Under the pieces are notes generated by a model. It ran no database searches. It saw nothing but the letters and a program-made list of their open reading frames with translations, and was not told the DNA's origin. From positions 62,001 to 126,000 of the forward strand of contig NZ_JACSRD010000198.1 in NCBI RefSeq assembly GCF_014879935.1: 64,000 nucleotides of DNA, written 5' to 3'. The position numbers were made by a program, and so were the translations under genes. Numbering within the stretch: the stretch's first letter is position 1; every line of letters begins with the position of its first letter. This stretch comes from Prosthecobacter sp. (GTDB taxonomy: Bacteria; Verrucomicrobiota; Verrucomicrobiia; Verrucomicrobiales; Verrucomicrobiaceae). Shown piece after piece: positions 1 to 61,340 of the stretch.

Positions 1-751
1 AGAGCCGGCCTTTGGGATCAAAACTGATCTTCCACGGATTGCGAAAGCCGAAGGCGTAGATCTCCGGGCGTGCGTTGGGCGTCGCGAGAAACGGATTGTC
101 CTTCGGGATGGCATACGCCTTGCCGTTTTCCTCGTGATCCACGTCGATGCGCAGGATGGAGGAAAGAAAGTCGCTCAAATCCTGCCCGGTCTTCAGCGAA
201 TCAGGCGGCGAAGGTGCGGTCGCATCGCCCGTGGTGCAGTAAAGCATGCCATCTGGGCCAAATTGCAGATGTGCGCCATTGTGACCGCCGCTCAACCAGG
301 TGAGCAGCACCGTCTCCGACTTCGGATCGAGCACCGGTGGGTCCTGCTGCGTTAGTTTGAAGCGCGAGAGCTTGCTGCCATCCGGATTCTTGTCGCCCTC
401 GACGTAGGTGATGAAGACGAAGCCGTTCTCACGCCACTGCGGATGAAACGCGATGCCATAGCCGTAGCTGAGCGCCGGATGATCCGGCTTGAGGTCAATC
501 AACAGGTCCTTCTTTGTGGTGTCGGGCGAGTCTTTGAAGGTCCAGATCTTGCCGTTCTTCTCGACCGCCGCGAATCGGCCGGCTCCGGGCACCATCTGCA
601 TCTCCAGGCCGTCATTCAGCGCGATCTGTGTGAACACCTGCTCGGGCACATAGGGCTTGGGAGCCTCCGGTGATCCCTGAATGTGCGAGGTGGTCCATTG
701 AGCCTGCGCGGCCAGGGAGAGTGCGGTGAGGTATGCAAAAACGCGGAGCAT
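1..751 (-). CDS. Exported PQQ-dependent sugar dehydrogenase (GSDH family), 3' part beyond left edge
   Basis: This frame is open to the left edge, so only about the first 250 residues are present. The start at 751 gives a short Sec signal peptide (MLRVFAYLTALSLAAQAQ). The stretches GGHNGAHLQFGPDG, TTGD and RPEIYAFGFRNPW are typical of the glucose/sorbosone dehydrogenase beta-propeller, which oxidises sugars outside the cytoplasm with PQQ and calcium. Family assignment is firm; the substrate is unknown. In this phylum such proteins often carry extra cytochrome or carbohydrate-binding domains at the C-terminus, which cannot be seen here. It is divergent from the next gene, with 76 bases between the two starts. 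Confidence 0.88.
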   Translation of the reverse strand, partial: MLRVFAYLTALSLAAQAQWTTSHIQGSPEAPKPYVPEQVFTQIALNDGLEMQMVPGAGRFAAVEKNGKIWTFKDSPDTTKKDLLIDLKPDHPALSYGYGIAFHPQWRENGFVFITYVEGDKNPDGSKLSRFKLTQQDPPVLDPKSETVLLTWLSGGHNGAHLQFGPDGMLYCTTGDATAPSPPDSLKTGQDLSDFLSSILRIDVDHEENGKAYAIPKDNPFLATPNARPEIYAFGFRNPWKISFDPKGRL

Positions 752-52402: not shown

Positions 52403-52504
52403 ATGTCTGCGCACTCGTTGTCCCGACCCCAACCCCATCATGCGCAACCGACTCCTGCTGTCTGCCGCCACGGCGCTTCTGCTAGGCCTTGGCCTTTATT
52501 TTAG
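52403..52504 (+). CDS. Possible 33-codon leader reading frame overlapping the giant gene start
   Basis: An ATG at 52403 is preceded by AAGGAG three bases upstream, an unusually good Shine-Dalgarno for this window. The frame runs 33 codons (MSAHSLSRPQPHHAQ and on) to TAG at 52502-52504, crossing the start of the giant gene at 52440 in another frame. The peptide has no recognisable features. It may be a leader that couples translation, or a chance frame. Confidence 0.3.
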   Translation: MSAHSLSRPQPHHAQPTPAVCRHGASARPWPLF

Positions 52505-55500
52505 ATCGGGCGGAGAGGAAAAAACACAAGGCAGACAGCCAGCGCAGGCCGGTTCGCGTTCCAAACCGGCTGAACTGGCGAGGGTGGAGGTGCCTGCGGC
52601 TGTCGCTGGGCCAAACAAGCTCAAGATCGATGTCGCGGGCACTCCTGCCGCAGGGGAGGCCGATATTTTGGCGGCGTTTGATGCCTGGACGGCGGAGTTC
52701 ATGAAGGCTGATGCGGCGGGAAGGGCGGGATTGATCGCCAGAGGCGTGGAACTGGCCGCCGCGCGTCGTCCAGTGTTCAAGCAGCTCATCATGGATGATC
52801 CGCGCAATGCGCTCGCCCGTGCGGTGCCGATGGTGGTGCGGCAGAATCTGCCCGCCGCCGTGCTGGCGCTGCTGGAGACGCGGGTGAACCAGCGTGCGGC
52901 CGTTTTTACTTACCAGGGAGTGCCTGCGGAGGGTGAGCCGCTGCCCGCGCCGGGGCGGACTTTGACGCATCGCATCGCACAGACTCAAAACGACGGAGCC
53001 TTCAACCTGCACGTGTATGGCCGCCGTGCGGAGATCTTCACCACTGTGCCGAACGCGGCGATCAACGGCGTTGGCATCGACCGCGAAATCGCCGCCAGCG
53101 AGAGCCCGGTGCGTGCGCTTGAGGTCGGGGAGCTCCCCGACCAGTCCAAGGAACAGGTGTCGGTGTGCCCGGTCAGCGGATTGAAAACGGCCAGCGAGGA
53201 GGAGATTGCCGATCCCATCACCGCCGAGCAGGCCGAGACGGTGGTGGAGACGCCCGAGGAGGTGATACACCTCTGCGGCGGGTATCACAAACCGATCGTC
53301 GAGGAGATGTACATCCAGGCGGAGGGCACCACGGGCGGCCCGGTGCTGCTCACGGGCGTGCTGCCGGCCCCGCCTACGCCCGCTGTCGGCCAGTTGAAGG
53401 TTTTGTACATCCCGATGACCTTCCAGGATCAAAACGACCGCCTGCCGACGGAATCGAAGAGCTACGAGATCATGCGCAACGTGGCGGACTACTACTCGAA
53501 GTCCTCCTTTGGCAAGCTTACCACCCAGACCACGGTCACCCCGCACGTGAAGCTGCCCAAAAACGAGGCGTGGTATGTGCAGCGCGACACCTCCAACGGC
53601 GGTGACATCGACGGACTCGGCCTCGAAATGGCCCATGCCCGTGAGGAGGCGAGGAAACTCGGCTTCGATTACAACGATTACGATGTGACGGTGCTGCGGC
53701 TGATCGGCGGGGCTCGTGCGACCGGCGGTTGGGGCGGTGGCGGCAATGTGTGGGTCTATGGCGACAGCGTGGGCGTCACGGCGCACGAGATCGGCCACAC
53801 CTTCGGCCTGTCGCATGCGAATTTCTGGGACACGGCCGGCACCAGCGCCATCGGGCCCGGTGCGAATGCTGAATATGGCGACAGCTACGACGTGATGGGC
53901 GGCGGCGGCGTGCCGACGGATCACTACAACGCTGCGGCCAAGGTGCAGGTGAAGTGGCTGCCGCAGAACTACGTGCAGAATGTCACCACCAGCGGGCTGT
54001 ATCGCATCCACGCCTTCGACCAGCCGGTGCTCGATCCGCGCAATCGTTACGCCATCACGATCACGAAGGACTCCCAGCGCACCTATTGGGGCGAAGTGCG
54101 GCAGCTTTACAATGGCAACGCTTCACGTCCCTGGGCGGACAAGGGTCTGATCCTCGGCTGGAAGTATCCCAATGGGAGCGGCAGCAACATCCAGCTCATC
54201 GACACCACGCCCGGCTCCCCCTACAACAAGGATGACGCCGCCATCGCCCTGGGGCAGACGTTTGGAGACACCGAGGCGGGCATCTTCATGACCACGCTCG
54301 GCGTGAGCAGCACGACGCCGAAGTATGTCGATGTGCTGGTCAACATCGGCGACTTCAGCGGCAACACCGCGCCCACGCTCGCCCTGGCGGCCTCGGCCAA
54401 TGTGGTGCCGAAGAACGCGACGGTGACTTTCACCGCCACCGCGGCCGATCCTGACGGCGACACGCTGGCCTATCAATGGCAGCACTGGGGCGACACGGCG
54501 GTGAAGATCGTCTCGCCAAACTCCCCCGTCATCACGCGGACTTTTTCGACCGAAGGCAGCTACGTCGTGAGCTGCACGGTCAGTGACATGAAGGGCGGCA
54601 GCATCACCCGCACCACCCTGATCACCGTGGGCAACGGCGGTGGCAAGTACACCATCAGCGGCCGTGTCACCGCAGGCGGTGCCGGTTTGCCGGGCGTCTT
54701 GCTCACGGCGAACGGCACGAATCCGACCATCACCGACTCGGACGGCTGGTACACCATCGCCAATCTGGCGGCGAACACCTACAGCGTGACGCCGCTGCTT
54801 TACGGCTACACGTTCGGGGAGTTGTTCAACAACAGCATCACCGTGGCGCCGAACTTCAGCGGGGCGGACTTCGAGGCGGAAGGACTGCCGCTGGTTTCGC
54901 TCACGGCCACGGACACCAGTGCGACCGAGGATTCGGCCGGCGAGACGGCCGCTTTCCGGCTCACGCGCACGGGAGACACGGCGGTGCCGTTGACCGTCAG
55001 CATCAATCCGGCCGTTGGCACGGCGGCGGCGGGCGATTACACGCTCAGTCCGGCATTGACCACTGGCACGGGTGGATTCAGCACCTTCCTGATCCCGGCA
55101 GACGCCAGCATGCTCGACATCGTGCTCACTCCGACCACCGACACGACGGCGGAAGGGCCGGAGACGGTCAGATTCGCCCTCGCAGCGGGCAGCGGCTATC
55201 TCATCGCACCGAACGCAGGCAGCGCGCAGGCGGTGATCGAGGACAATGACACGGTGCTGCCAAAGATCAGCGTCGTGGCCACGACTGACACGGCCGATGA
55301 AGGCAGCGGGACGCCGGGTGTCTTCACCGTGAGCCGCAGCGGCAGCACGGCGGCCGATGTCACGGTGAATTACAGCCTTGGGGGCACGGCGGCCGCCGGG
55401 ACGGATTACGCCACGCTTGGCGGAAGCGTTTTGATTCCTGCGGGAAGCAGTTCGGCGGCGGTCAACATCACGCCATTGCAGGACACGCAGGTGGAGCCGA

Positions 55501-58500
55501 TGGAGACAGCCACGCTGACGCTCAGCACCAATGCCGCCTACGTGCTGGAGCCGTCCGCGACGACGGCCACGGTCAGCTTGTTCGACGATGACACGAATGT
55601 GGTCACACTGGCCGTCACTGATGCGACCGCGCAGGAGGTGGATCTCAGCGTTCCGGGAAATGTGGCCGACACCGCCACCTTTCTGATCACCCGGTCAGGT
55701 GATCTCGGCTCCTCCCTCACCGTTTATTATTCGGTGGCCGGCAGTCCCAGCAGCGGCGTGCCGGCGATTCATGGCGTGGACTATGAGGCGCTGCCGGGGG
55801 CCGTGCAGATCCCCGCAGGCTCGAAATCGGCCGCCATCACGATCGTTCCGCGCTGGGATGGCTTTGGTGAGACGGCGGAGCAGATCCTGCTGCAGCTCGG
55901 CGCGGGTCCCACGGACTACCGGCTCGGCGACACGACCTCCGGCACGGTGACGATCAATGACAGCGCCACTTCCAACGCGCCTTATGTCGAGGTGGCGGCG
56001 CAGACCAGCGCGGTGGAAGGCGGAAGCTCCGGCGTGATCCGCTTTTCCATCAAAGGCAGCGTGACGGGCACCGTGAGCGTGCCATTCAGCCTCGGCGGCA
56101 CGGCTGTCCGGACCACGGATTACACCGTCACGCTCCCTTCATCACCTGCGGGCAGCACCTATGACGCGGCCACCGGGACGGGCGTCATCGTGATGAACAG
56201 CAGCGGCAGCGTGGCATCCACCGTCGATCTGACATTCGTGCCGGTGAATGACACCGCGCTGGAGAACATCGAAAGCATCACCTGCACGATCACGCCGAGC
56301 TCCGCGGTGTCGCTTTATGCGCCGACGAGCAGTGCCAGCATCTGGCTGCGTGACAACGACCAGCCGACCGTGTGGGTGGATTCGCAGGTGGGAACCAGCG
56401 CGCTCACCATCAACCGCATCGTTGAAGGAGCGACCACGTCGCCCTTCAAGTTCTACGCCTCCCGCACTGGCTCCACCACGTCGCCGCTGACGGTCAATTT
56501 CTCGCTGCAAGGCACCGCCACACCGGGAACGGACTTCACCGTCACCACCAGCGGCACGCTCACCTTTGACAACGGCACGCGCACCGGGACGCTCACGATT
56601 CCGGCCGCTGCCTCGGGTGCGGATCTCACACTGAGCCTGACGGGCACGAACGACACGGAAGTCGAAGGCACGGAGACCCTCGTCCTGCATCTGGAGGCCG
56701 GGAGTTACTCCCAAACGCCGGATGCGATCATTTACCTCGACGACAATGACACCACGGCGCAGACGGTGGCCTTTGAGAGCAACGGTGCCTCCGGAGCGGA
56801 GAGTGTCGGCACGGTGAATGTGCCGGTCACGCTGGCATCACCGTCTGCCGGCACGACCACGGTGGATTATTATGTCGATTCCGGGACACGGGCCTCGGTC
56901 ACCGGCACGAGCACCGTGCCGTCCCTGCCGTATTGGACGCGGGTGGTGCGTGAGGCGAATGTGCTGACGAGTTATGTCTCCACAGACGGCGTCAACTGGC
57001 AGACGGTGAGCACGCCGCAGACGATCAACCTCGTCGCGAGTGGCTACACGGTCGGTTTGGTGGCCATGTCCTCAACTTCGGCCGTCAGTTGCACCGCCAC
57101 GCTGGACAATTTCAGCATCACCGGCCTGGACGCGGGTGGCGCGGCCAGTGCGGCGACGTTCGGCAGCATCGGGACGACCAATCCGGCCAGCACCAGCAGT
57201 GTCAGCAGCGGTGTTTACACGCTGAACGCCGGCGGTGCCGGATTGAGCACGAGCGGCACCTCCGACACATCCTGTTATGTGTCCCATGTGATCACAAACT
57301 CGGTCAACTGCACCGTCACCGCACGCGTGGTGGGCATCACAAATGGCAACAACACCTCGCGCGCCGGCGTCATGATCCGCGACAGCACCGCGACCACCGC
57401 ACGGCACATGTCCATGCTGGGTGAGAAGGCGGGGACGGCACGCAGCATCCGGCGTCTGACCTCGAATGGGAGTTCCGCCACCACGACGGTTGTGCGGCCC
57501 TACTGGGTGCGGCTGCGCCGTGTGGGCTCGATCTTCAGCGCCTGGGCGTCTCCTGATGGCAGTACTTGGGCGCAGACGGGCGCGAACCAGGTCATTCCGA
57601 TGGGAATCGATGTGCAGGCCGGTCTGGCGGTCAGCTCCCGCTCGGATGGCGCCCTGTCGGCGGCCGTCTTTGACAACGTCACCATCGATGGCGTGGCTGC
57701 GAGCGGCCTCACCGGCCGGACCATCGGTTTTGTGAACTCGCAAGGAGCGGACAGCCTCGACTCGGGCACTTACACGGTGACCGGATCGGGCGCTGCCATC
57801 GGCGGCACCGGGGATGAATGCCACTTCGTCGCCGCCACGTTGACGGGGAACTTCGAACTGGTCGCGCGTGTGGTCTCCCAGACGGGTGGAGCCGCGAACG
57901 CGCAGGCGGGCGTCATGGCGCGGGACACGCACAGCCATCGTGCCATGTCCGCCTACATCGGCGTGGTGGCCAACGCGCGGACGGAATTCATCTCCCGCAA
58001 CTCCACGGTGACGAACGCCTTCGGCACGGGCGTGGATTTCTCGCTCGCCAACGGCACGCTCAGCTTTGCCGACGGGGAGCAGACGAAAAACATCGTGCTC
58101 GCCATCAGCGATGACACGACTCCCGAGCCGAATGAGGCCGTGACGGTCTTCCTGCGCAATCCGACTGCCGCGATGCTCGGCACGCAGACTTCCTTCGCCT
58201 ATGTGATCGAGGATGACGACACTCCGCCGGCCCTTCCGCTGGTGGGTTTCGCGCAGGCGGCCGGCAGCGCCGCGGAAAGCACCGCCGGCACCCAGGAGAT
58301 CACCGTGAGCCTGAGCGCGCCGGTGGACTCTCCGGTCAGCGTGGACTTCACATTGGGCGGCACGGCCAGCAGCGGCGGTGATTTCACGCTTGAGGCCGGC
58401 ACGGTGACCTTTGCGCCGGGCGAGACGGCGCGGGTGATCCCGCTCGTGATCAATGACGATGCCACCATCGAGCCGGACGAGACGGTGGTGCTGACATTGG

Positions 58501-61340
58501 TCAATCCGGTGGGCGCGGCGCTCGAAACGCAGACGACTCACACTTTCACCATCACGGATGATGACCTGCCAGTCGTCAGCATCGCCGCCACGGATGCCAG
58601 CGCCTCTGAAACCGGCCCCGATCCGGGCGTCTTCACCCTCAGCCGCACCGGGGCCACCACCTCGGCGCTCACGGTTTCGCTCACACGCTCCGGCACTGCG
58701 GGCAACAGCACGGACTACGCGTCGATCAGCCCGGCCAGCACCTTCAGTTTCTCGATTCCCGCCGGACAGGCCTCTGCCACGATCACGATCACTCCGGTGA
58801 ATGATTCGACGAATGAAGTGGCGGAGACGGTCATCCTCACCGTGAACGCCTCCGCGGGCGTGTACACCGTCGCAGCGCCCGCCGCGGCCACGGTGACGAT
58901 CCTGGACAATGATCGCAGCACGGTCACGATCACCGCCACGGATGGCAGCGCGTCAGAGACCCCCGGCAACACGGGCACCTTCACCATCACCCGCAGCGCT
59001 CCGACCACGGGGACCTTGAGCGTGGCATTCACCGTGTCCGGCACGGCAGCCAGCGGTTCGGATTACACCGCCTTCACCTCGCCCTTCACGTTCGCCGCGA
59101 ACGAGGTCAGCCGCACCTTCACCGTGACACCGGTGGACGATCTCATCACGGAAGGCGCGGAAACAGTGCTGCTCCAGCTTTCCACCGGCAGTTACGACAT
59201 CGGCGGCACCGGCTACGATGAGGTGGTGATCCTGGACAACGACTTCCCGCCGGTGGTCTCCATCGTCAGCCCGACCAGCGATGGCAATCTGGTCGCCAGC
59301 GGGCAGGGGATCATGGTTTCAGCCACCGCCAGTGATGATGGCTCTCCCGCCGCGCTCAGCACCGCGTGGAGCCAGGTCAGCGGGCCTGGCGCGGCCACCT
59401 TTGAAGCGCCTTCCGCGCTCAGCAGCGCGGTGACCTTCAGCGCGGACGGTGTTTATGTGCTGCGTTTCTCCGCCACGGACACGCAATTCACCGTTGGCAC
59501 CCAGGTGACTGTGGTGGTGGGCTCGGCCATCGCCGCGGACGACTGGATCGCGCAGGACATGGGGCCCACGACGCAGCAGCGCGGCCAGACGGCACGGGTG
59601 GGGCTCAGTCACATCCTCACCGGCATGGGCGCGGGTTACACCGGCACCACGACCGATGCCGCGCACGTCCTGACGCGGCAGATCACGGGTGATGGCAGCA
59701 TCACCGCCCGCATCACCTCGCTTTCCGGGCCGGCGGCCGCTCCGCTGGCAGGGGTGACGATCCGCGACAGCCTGAATCGCAGCGTGCGCCGTGCGGTTCT
59801 GGGCTATTCGAACGGCACGCTGCAGTTCCGCACCCGCACAGCCGTCAGCACGAACGACACGGCCGTCACACAGTCGGGCATCAGCCTGCCGGTCTGGGTC
59901 AAGCTGGAGCGCAGCAGCGCCACGCAGCAGATCACCGCCTCCTACGCCTCTGATTCCAGCGGCACGCCCGGAGCGTGGACGGTGCTCGGCAGCCCCACCG
60001 TGCTGTCGATGCTGAATGACACCACCATGATGGGACTCACGGCCACGGGGAACAGCGCCACCGCAGGGCAGGTGTGCACGGCGGTGTTTGACAACGTCTC
60101 CCTCACACCCGCGCCTTCCGGTCCCGCCTTGGTCACGGAGAATTTCGGCACCGCGCCCACGACTCAGGCCACCTTCGCCTTTGACGGCACCACCTACACC
60201 ATCGGCGCCGCGGACAGCATGGATGGAAACGGCGCCTTCTACGGCTGGCAGTATCAGGGGGATCTGATGGTCACCGCGAAGCTCGTGGATGCGAACAGCG
60301 GTGCCCTCAACGCGAAGTCAGGCATCATGATCCGCGAAAGCATGGACAACGGCGGCTACGCGCATGTGGGCCGCATCCCCACCGGCTCCTTCAGCGGCTA
60401 CATCTGGCGCAGCGTGGCCGCGGGCGGCACGGGCGGCGTACCCAGCTTCACCGGCAAAGTCCGCTGGATGCGCCTCATGCGTGAAGGGAACCGCATCACG
60501 GCCTTCCATGCGGCGGATTCCGCCGGTGCTCCCGGCACCTGGACGCAGCTCGGGTCGCCGCGCACCATCATCATGACGCCGCAGGTGCTCGTGGGCTTCG
60601 CTGTGGACAATGCGGGCGGCACGGCAGGCGTTTTGAACGTCGCGAAGTTCTCCAACCTCACCATTGTGCCGCTCAACCGCGCCCCCGGCATCGCCTTCGC
60701 CAGTGTGGGCGATCTTTCGCCCGTCTCGCTCGATGCCACGGTCACGGACGACAGCTTTCCAGTGCCGGTCAGCCTCACACCGCACTGGAGCCAGCTTTCC
60801 GGGCCTGCCGCCCTCGTTTTTGGCACTCCCAACGCGATCGACACCACCGCCGCGCTCAGTTTGAACGGTGCTTACACAGTCCGGCTCGTGGCGGACGACA
60901 GCGCCGTCAGCAGCTTCCGCGATCTGAGTTTCTCCGCCTACACCAGCCCCTTCGCGAAATGGCTCGTCACCACCAGCACAGGCGATGGGGACGCCAGTGC
61001 CATGGAGGCCTCCGCCGACGCCGACGGCGATGGACTGCTGAACCTCCTCGAATACGCCGTGGGCACCAACGGCACCGTGCAAAACAGCAACCCGCAGGTC
61101 ATCAGCCTCGCCCCTGTGAACACGGAGCAGTACCTCCGCATCTCCGTGCCGAGGAATCCCGCCGCCACGGATGTGACGCTCATCGTCGAGGCCACCAGCG
61201 ACCTGAGCAATCCCGCGAGCTGGAGCAGCGACGGACTCATCATCGAGACCAACACCGCCACACAGCTCGTCGTGCGTGACCACGTGCCCGCCGGCCCTGG
61301 CGTGCGGCGTTTCATGCGTGTGCGGGTGGATCGGCCGTGA
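52440..61340 (+). CDS. Giant exported metzincin-like protease with Calx-beta domains (2966 aa)
   Basis: A 2966-residue exported protein with signal (MRNRLLLSAATALLLGLGLYF). Residues about 320-640 are a zinc protease with H449-E-x-x-H453-x-x-G-x-x-H459 and M486 as Met-turn, resembling M6/gametolysin-type enzymes. Then come a PKD-like domain (642-733), a carboxypeptidase-regulatory-like domain (737-796) and Calx-beta domains near 818, 942, 1053, 1181, 1310, 1441 (split by an insert), 1930, 2043 and 2160. Two REJ-like stretches (2271, 2745) flank two DUF1349-like units (2362-2740). Near 2860 is a calcium-loop-like DADGDGLLNLLEYAVGTN, then a final beta region, perhaps for surface attachment. Role inferred: extracellular protease/adhesin. 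Confidence 0.88.
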   Translation: MRNRLLLSAATALLLGLGLYFRSGGEEKTQGRQPAQAGSRSKPAELARVEVPAAVAGPNKLKIDVAGTPAAGEADILAAFDAWTAEFMKADAAGRAGLIARGVELAAARRPVFKQLIMDDPRNALARAVPMVVRQNLPAAVLALLETRVNQRAAVFTYQGVPAEGEPLPAPGRTLTHRIAQTQNDGAFNLHVYGRRAEIFTTVPNAAINGVGIDREIAASESPVRALEVGELPDQSKEQVSVCPVSGLKTASEEEIADPITAEQAETVVETPEEVIHLCGGYHKPIVEEMYIQAEGTTGGPVLLTGVLPAPPTPAVGQLKVLYIPMTFQDQNDRLPTESKSYEIMRNVADYYSKSSFGKLTTQTTVTPHVKLPKNEAWYVQRDTSNGGDIDGLGLEMAHAREEARKLGFDYNDYDVTVLRLIGGARATGGWGGGGNVWVYGDSVGVTAHEIGHTFGLSHANFWDTAGTSAIGPGANAEYGDSYDVMGGGGVPTDHYNAAAKVQVKWLPQNYVQNVTTSGLYRIHAFDQPVLDPRNRYAITITKDSQRTYWGEVRQLYNGNASRPWADKGLILGWKYPNGSGSNIQLIDTTPGSPYNKDDAAIALGQTFGDTEAGIFMTTLGVSSTTPKYVDVLVNIGDFSGNTAPTLALAASANVVPKNATVTFTATAADPDGDTLAYQWQHWGDTAVKIVSPNSPVITRTFSTEGSYVVSCTVSDMKGGSITRTTLITVGNGGGKYTISGRVTAGGAGLPGVLLTANGTNPTITDSDGWYTIANLAANTYSVTPLLYGYTFGELFNNSITVAPNFSGADFEAEGLPLVSLTATDTSATEDSAGETAAFRLTRTGDTAVPLTVSINPAVGTAAAGDYTLSPALTTGTGGFSTFLIPADASMLDIVLTPTTDTTAEGPETVRFALAAGSGYLIAPNAGSAQAVIEDNDTVLPKISVVATTDTADEGSGTPGVFTVSRSGSTAADVTVNYSLGGTAAAGTDYATLGGSVLIPAGSSSAAVNITPLQDTQVEPMETATLTLSTNAAYVLEPSATTATVSLFDDDTNVVTLAVTDATAQEVDLSVPGNVADTATFLITRSGDLGSSLTVYYSVAGSPSSGVPAIHGVDYEALPGAVQIPAGSKSAAITIVPRWDGFGETAEQILLQLGAGPTDYRLGDTTSGTVTINDSATSNAPYVEVAAQTSAVEGGSSGVIRFSIKGSVTGTVSVPFSLGGTAVRTTDYTVTLPSSPAGSTYDAATGTGVIVMNSSGSVASTVDLTFVPVNDTALENIESITCTITPSSAVSLYAPTSSASIWLRDNDQPTVWVDSQVGTSALTINRIVEGATTSPFKFYASRTGSTTSPLTVNFSLQGTATPGTDFTVTTSGTLTFDNGTRTGTLTIPAAASGADLTLSLTGTNDTEVEGTETLVLHLEAGSYSQTPDAIIYLDDNDTTAQTVAFESNGASGAESVGTVNVPVTLASPSAGTTTVDYYVDSGTRASVTGTSTVPSLPYWTRVVREANVLTSYVSTDGVNWQTVSTPQTINLVASGYTVGLVAMSSTSAVSCTATLDNFSITGLDAGGAASAATFGSIGTTNPASTSSVSSGVYTLNAGGAGLSTSGTSDTSCYVSHVITNSVNCTVTARVVGITNGNNTSRAGVMIRDSTATTARHMSMLGEKAGTARSIRRLTSNGSSATTTVVRPYWVRLRRVGSIFSAWASPDGSTWAQTGANQVIPMGIDVQAGLAVSSRSDGALSAAVFDNVTIDGVAASGLTGRTIGFVNSQGADSLDSGTYTVTGSGAAIGGTGDECHFVAATLTGNFELVARVVSQTGGAANAQAGVMARDTHSHRAMSAYIGVVANARTEFISRNSTVTNAFGTGVDFSLANGTLSFADGEQTKNIVLAISDDTTPEPNEAVTVFLRNPTAAMLGTQTSFAYVIEDDDTPPALPLVGFAQAAGSAAESTAGTQEITVSLSAPVDSPVSVDFTLGGTASSGGDFTLEAGTVTFAPGETARVIPLVINDDATIEPDETVVLTLVNPVGAALETQTTHTFTITDDDLPVVSIAATDASASETGPDPGVFTLSRTGATTSALTVSLTRSGTAGNSTDYASISPASTFSFSIPAGQASATITITPVNDSTNEVAETVILTVNASAGVYTVAAPAAATVTILDNDRSTVTITATDGSASETPGNTGTFTITRSAPTTGTLSVAFTVSGTAASGSDYTAFTSPFTFAANEVSRTFTVTPVDDLITEGAETVLLQLSTGSYDIGGTGYDEVVILDNDFPPVVSIVSPTSDGNLVASGQGIMVSATASDDGSPAALSTAWSQVSGPGAATFEAPSALSSAVTFSADGVYVLRFSATDTQFTVGTQVTVVVGSAIAADDWIAQDMGPTTQQRGQTARVGLSHILTGMGAGYTGTTTDAAHVLTRQITGDGSITARITSLSGPAAAPLAGVTIRDSLNRSVRRAVLGYSNGTLQFRTRTAVSTNDTAVTQSGISLPVWVKLERSSATQQITASYASDSSGTPGAWTVLGSPTVLSMLNDTTMMGLTATGNSATAGQVCTAVFDNVSLTPAPSGPALVTENFGTAPTTQATFAFDGTTYTIGAADSMDGNGAFYGWQYQGDLMVTAKLVDANSGALNAKSGIMIRESMDNGGYAHVGRIPTGSFSGYIWRSVAAGGTGGVPSFTGKVRWMRLMREGNRITAFHAADSAGAPGTWTQLGSPRTIIMTPQVLVGFAVDNAGGTAGVLNVAKFSNLTIVPLNRAPGIAFASVGDLSPVSLDATVTDDSFPVPVSLTPHWSQLSGPAALVFGTPNAIDTTAALSLNGAYTVRLVADDSAVSSFRDLSFSAYTSPFAKWLVTTSTGDGDASAMEASADADGDGLLNLLEYAVGTNGTVQNSNPQVISLAPVNTEQYLRISVPRNPAATDVTLIVEATSDLSNPASWSSDGLIIETNTATQLVVRDHVPAGPGVRRFMRVRVDRP
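56896..58013 (+). other. In-frame insert of two permuted DUF1349-like units within a Calx-beta domain
   Basis: Junctions are at CGGTCACC (56896-56903) and CGGTGACG (58006-58013), exactly 1,110 bases (370 codons) apart. The flanks are the N-half (TVDYYVDSGTRASV) and C-half (TNAFGTGVDFSLANGTLSF) of one Calx-beta domain. The insert reads C-half of unit X, complete unit Y, N-half of unit X. If X is rejoined, NAR to YW spans 25 residues, against 24 in unit Y. Confidence 0.65.

Follow-up and report, generated by a model that had tools for sequence, protein, structure and literature searches.

A conserved, circularly permuted DUF1349-like insert within a single Calx-beta domain of a giant verrucomicrobial protein

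Our analysis of 64,000 nucleotides of Prosthecobacter DNA (the window) documents a Calx-beta domain, the sixth of its protein, whose two flanks are separated by an insert that is circularly permuted relative to its own DUF1349/ConA-like jelly-roll unit. The arrangement is old and inherited, with no fresh DNA insertion. The computations yield one split Calx-beta domain, the permuted order and its age, a single gain, a series of relatives with zero, one and two units, and the identity of the repeat that was lost. The explanation that we favor, and hold with good confidence, is an ancient, out-of-register insertion of DUF1349 repeats, followed by contraction of the resulting tandem repeat.

The host genome has 7.7 Mb, and its relatives of the same genus are named Prosthecobacter or Verrucomicrobiaceae. 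A signal-peptide-like start and the metzincin-type motif HEIGHTFGLSH are found in the host protein, which reads, from Pfam matches and by direct reading, as a secreted, metzincin-like protease. Its Pfam content comprises PKD, carboxypeptidase-regulatory-like, Calx-beta and DUF1349 matches, with a DUF1349 (PF07081) score of 38.5 bits for the whole protein. The domain map has nine Calx-beta domains, of which the sixth is the split one, and two canonical DUF1349-like units with PKD near the C-terminus. On the minus strand of 52440-61340 the gene is overlapped by a number of long antisense ORFs, the longest of 509 aa; they are typical for GC-rich coding DNA and probably are not genes.

52440..61340, + strand: host gene, one ORF of 2966 aa (from the ORF, Pfam and the domain map)
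59532..60671, + strand: canonical tandem DUF1349-like units Da and Db (matched at unit profile 5-191 and 20-190), an array of the kind that could be a source

The split domain and its insert are laid out as follows.

56760..56897, + strand: Calx-beta 6 N-terminal flank (residues 1441-1486; PF03160 profile 7-49/119)
56898..57125, + strand: linker and C-half C1 of a DUF1349-like unit (DUF1349 profile 117-177/179 at 56919-57125)
57129..57692, + strand: whole DUF1349-like unit N1+C2 (unit profile 1-190/191), predicted to be nested in the permuted unit
57693..58007, + strand: N-half N2 of a DUF1349-like unit (unit profile 3-117/191)
58014..58232, + strand: Calx-beta 6 C-terminal flank (PF03160 profile 52-118/119; invariant acidic positions 426, 452, 456 and 487)

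A sequence-only reading of this DNA had placed 1,110 bases, in frame, between two halves of one Calx-beta domain, and both parts of that claim hold. The step from 56896 to 58006 lies inside a single ORF, and the joined flanks match Calx-beta (PF03160) with 41.1 bits over profile positions 7-117/119, so that the whole domain passes the curated cut-off of 27 bits, in agreement with the predicted fold. E14, D426, D452, E456 and D487 (region numbering), spread over both flanks, do not vary among 30 homologues. E14, D426 and the D/E segment of the region align with acidic residues of NCX1 that we take to be calcium ligands, and the split domain may bind calcium at these positions.

The insert had been described as half unit, whole unit, half unit, an order that profiles and AlphaFold bear out and specify as C-half, whole unit, N-half. 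When N2 is placed before C1, the pair scores 32.8 bits against DUF1349 (profile 37-177/179), for which the curated cut-off is 32.4 bits. C1 alone, with a PYW core that begins at 56928, scores 26.4 bits and falls below this cut-off, as does the inner whole unit N1+C2 (19.0 bits), and N2 alone has no match to the DUF1349 profile. The rejoined outer halves were also said to keep the spacing of the intact unit, and direct reading gives 25 versus 24 residues (NARTEFISRNSTVTGTSTVPSLPYW against TARSIRRLTSNGSSATTTVVRPYW). Profile joining and structural alignment agree with the earlier proposal of a circular permutation of the insert relative to its unit.

Structure prediction had been suggested as a check on the split domain. 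In an AlphaFold2 model of the two-unit region (503 residues, 37 sequences; mean pLDDT 89.2, pTM 0.77), the VIA-align match to NCX1 CBD1 (3gin_B; Z 16.0, rmsd 1.9, 112/116 residues) extends over model residues 11..500, and because the alignment spans this range both flanks are predicted to form one Calx-beta fold. The circularly permuted glucanase 1ajo_A aligns over 58..428 (Z 11.8, 165/212 aligned), and VIA-align matches to legume lectins span residues 56 to 406. Since the whole unit N1+C2 occupies about 136 to 323 of the model, inside these ranges, the matches must combine both outer halves. The aligned ranges thereby predict that C1 pairs with N2 in a ConA-like jelly roll, and the predicted architecture is one in which Calx-beta holds a permuted jelly roll (C1+N2) that in turn holds a normal one. 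Foldseek alone gave only weak E-values on the two-unit model. For L081, a relative with a single unit, the model (pLDDT 79) has a Calx-beta fold across both flanks (Z 14.4, 1..297) and a single permuted jelly roll at 52..224; between the two models, the matches of the outer unit to legume lectins and 1AJO have Z values of 8-12.

The 491-residue arrangement is conserved end to end in dozens of homologues (more than 35), which come from the same genus and from other genera, families, orders and classes of Verrucomicrobiota. Identity across the full-length homologues runs from 82% down to about 36-40%, and over this long conservation both flanks and both halves retain invariant residues and show no decay. 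The insertion had been thought to be cleanly visible today, and homologues with an ancient, stable order had been named beforehand as evidence against the recombination reading. Such homologues were found, and the same order in so many proteins across families and orders contradicts the claim. A recent insertion or an assembly artefact was also considered, and is ruled out by full-length homologues in independently sequenced genomes.

Several of the homologous loci have peculiarities of their own. In a Verrucomicrobia MAG (L080:7623-7804) a break interrupts the gene within its whole DUF1349-like unit, and two overlapping frames of 2001 and 412 aa continue each other, which points to a frameshift or to an error in the assembly. 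Two genomes each encode a pair of paralogues of the giant protein, both with this split Calx-beta domain and about 14 kb from one another, on the contig of L069 and L072 and on that of L065 and L073. The two-unit homologue at L055:2657-14323 has 3889 aa, some 900 residues above its relatives, possibly owing to a C-terminal fusion.

A search for homologues with an uninterrupted Calx-beta domain, as had been proposed, was successful. Zero-unit proteins, located by a search with the protease part and by domain mapping, have an intact sixth Calx-beta domain (L157-L163, L169-L171, L173, L040 and L164). The joined-flank profile fits the sixth domain best in L040, L170, L171, L164 and L159-L163 (58-85 bits), and in the first four of these the sixth domain scores 75-85 bits versus at most 40 for their other Calx domains. 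The seventh domain scores slightly above the sixth in L157, L158 and L169, and the fifth counted domain of L173 scores 102. None of these zero-unit homologues is a very close orthologue, all being sisters or paralogues, and an intermediate is therefore missing. In the sister family L157-L163, Calx-beta 6 and 7 are separated by some 160 residues of unassigned type (in L157, for example, residues 1500-1659).

One-unit homologues have the order Calx-N, C-half, N-half, Calx-C (L081, L090, L092, L093 and L095); L085 and L089, which end at contig ends, were left out of these cases, and the unit states of L060, L069 and the broken L080 were assigned by hand from full-length alignments. In a tree of the region from the protease to the fifth Calx domain, from which the insert is excluded, a branch with support of 100 separates all insert-bearing proteins from the others. 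A second tree, built from more of the protein after the insert had been cut out, recovers the same single group. The L092 row of this second tree is partly over-trimmed, and L092 is placed alike in the first tree, which was built without this trimming. Because the insert-bearing proteins form one clade, the insert was gained once. One-unit proteins appear twice on the tree, L081 within a two-unit group and the Opitutae together with L090, to which the two-unit L086 is sister (support 99-100). Their C-half is 46% identical to C2 and 36% to C1, their N-half is 40% identical to N2 and 30% to N1, and a grouping of N1 with N2 that omits the one-unit N-halves is rejected (AU p 0.003). The tree positions, the similarity to C2 and N2 and the AU rejection together indicate that the two-unit state predates the one-unit forms, which originated on at least two occasions when one permuted repeat, C1 and N1, was lost. 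In L081, the join left by this loss lies near the PYWVR start of the C-half.

The two junctions of the insert had been noted to share a short sequence.

56896..56902, + strand: CGGTCAC at the first junction, not conserved, coincidental
58006..58012, + strand: CGGTGAC at the second junction, conserved only in part, coincidental

The 7-mer is really there, but the motif is frequent and relatives do not retain it at the two junctions together. The window has 55 copies of CGGTSAC where 26 are expected, with 13 on the + strand of the host gene, and among 12 sequences checked this genome alone has CGGTsAC at both junctions. The first junction of the nearest relative (82% identical) reads TCTGTCAC, without the motif, which is also absent there from all other relatives checked; the shared 7-mer is thus a chance match that arose by drift. 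As a candidate recombination footprint it is ruled out by its frequency in the window and its absence from the first junction of relatives. A search for direct DNA repeats around the insert returned only low-identity families, typical of diverged repeats. These results call for caution, as seven matching bases at two junctions in GC-rich coding DNA are poor evidence of recombination.

The mechanism first proposed was integration of an excised two-unit DNA circle, or an equivalent recombination, at the short homology, with the result still cleanly visible. Two units read in cyclic rotation do give the order of the insert, and this genome has the 7-mer at each junction, yet the insert and its permuted order are common to homologues across orders, the junction homology is shared with none of the relatives checked and is common by chance, and forms with one and no unit exist. 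The conserved order and the unshared 7-mer refute such an integration as a recent event, and we consider this explanation very unlikely. An ancient circle would yield the same order and may have been involved, but none is needed and nothing points to one. A two-unit circle is not required, because the zero-, one- and two-unit forms share one position, the one-unit forms retain exactly one permuted repeat, and a piece taken out of register from a tandem DUF1349 array would yield the same product. It is similarly hard to believe that each flank is the remnant of a different Calx-beta domain, with the half-units being unpaired leftovers of deletion. Two deletions in a Calx-DUF-DUF-DUF-Calx chain would leave the same linear order, but both joined pairs are complete domains in sequence and predicted structure, their long conservation shows no decay of flanks or halves, and homologues have a single intact Calx-beta domain at the same place.

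Other alternatives concern the order in which the forms arose. The one-unit forms (Opitutae, L090 and L081) could be ancestral, with the two-unit forms duplicated later and more than once, and Opitutae and L090 are indeed early branches in the N2 group. However, a two-unit protein, L086, is their sister, L081 lies within a group of two-unit proteins, and the rejected grouping of N1 with N2 also argues against this order, which we regard as improbable. More plausible, though we lean somewhat against it, is that one unit, permuted before its insertion, was duplicated in tandem, in place, before the known lineages split, the one-unit forms being later losses. This would be a variant of the first step of our favored explanation and is compatible with the remainder. 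The two-unit form does read [C N][C N], and AU tests do not reject a single clade of insert halves (p 0.57 for N, p 0.66 for C), but C1 and C2 (36% identical) and N1 and N2 (28%) resemble each other no more than units from unrelated proteins do. The half-unit trees are short and poorly resolved, and a single clade of all insert halves is neither rejected nor shown by them.

In the explanation that we favor, out-of-register insertion followed by contraction, an ancestral verrucomicrobial secreted protease would have gained a stretch of DUF1349/ConA-like repeats once, in a loop of Calx-beta 6 directly before its conserved Gly-x-Asp-Tyr/Phe segment. The stretch would have been out of register with the unit boundaries, C-half first and N-half last, the unit being cut at a loop whose two sides adjoin in space. 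Since these sides are spatial neighbors, the outer halves could fold as a permuted jelly roll that fits the Calx-beta loop, while the whole unit would form an extra nested domain at the original termini of the permuted unit, and Calx-beta would still fold. The insert would then have behaved as a tandem repeat, [C1 N1][C2 N2], from which one repeat was lost at least twice. We infer that the copying route was permutation by duplication from a tandem array. The canonical units Da and Db resemble C1, C2, N1 and N2 no more than units elsewhere do, and these comparisons therefore do not single out a source array; a search of the host's own genome, outside the host gene, found only weak paralogous matches (28-36%). 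Giant proteins of Verrucomicrobiota and Acidobacteria (L094, L101 and L117) contain three to five DUF1349-like units in normal order, and arrays of this kind could have served as a source. The inserted units probably act as lectin-like modules carried sideways off the Calx-beta stalk. We see about an even chance that the insert works like a concertina, in which the permuted repeats within one Calx-beta domain contract, and perhaps expand, by whole repeats, and half-domains swap partners after each loss (N2 with C1 in two-unit forms, N2 with C2 in one-unit forms) as the host domain stays intact.

Permutation and domain insertion have mostly been studied separately, and intermediates are rare. 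Here a single position in one family is represented by an empty host, one permuted unit and two units, and the tree orders these states, so that permutation by duplication and the exchange of half-domain partners after repeat loss become testable. Our literature search for Calx-beta domains with inserted domains, or with DUF1349 in Verrucomicrobia, returned no matching report. Nested insertions and permuted inserted domains are already known; in the literature searched we found no report of their combination in a Calx-beta host with extant zero-, one- and two-unit forms, and this combination appears to be new.

Among known systems, CBD1 and CBD2 of NCX1 and Calx resemble the host domain in fold and in the acidic calcium-site positions, but their structures lack an inserted jelly roll in this loop. 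Concanavalin A, favin and the glucanase 1AJO resemble the permuted unit in fold class and chain order; concanavalin A is permuted post-translationally and 1AJO by design, and neither sits inside another domain. Nested insertions of the form A1-B1-C-B2-A2, as in NdhH, have been described in a study that keeps circular permutation distinct from insertion and does not mention Calx-beta (PMC13114784). The predicted architecture likewise has a domain in a domain in a domain, but with B circularly permuted, C-half first, and with B and C from one family. A mechanistic parallel is swaposin, the plant-specific insert of plant aspartic proteinases, whose permutation has been attributed to a tandem-array fragment taken out of register, that is, permutation by duplication (PMC3320104). 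There too a permuted copy of a tandemly occurring domain was placed in a protease, and in our predicted folds the C-half likewise precedes the N-half in one domain within a host domain. In contrast to swaposin, our case involves a beta jelly roll hosted by a Calx-beta and not a catalytic domain, a second unit is nested in the permuted one, and relatives with zero, one and two units exist.
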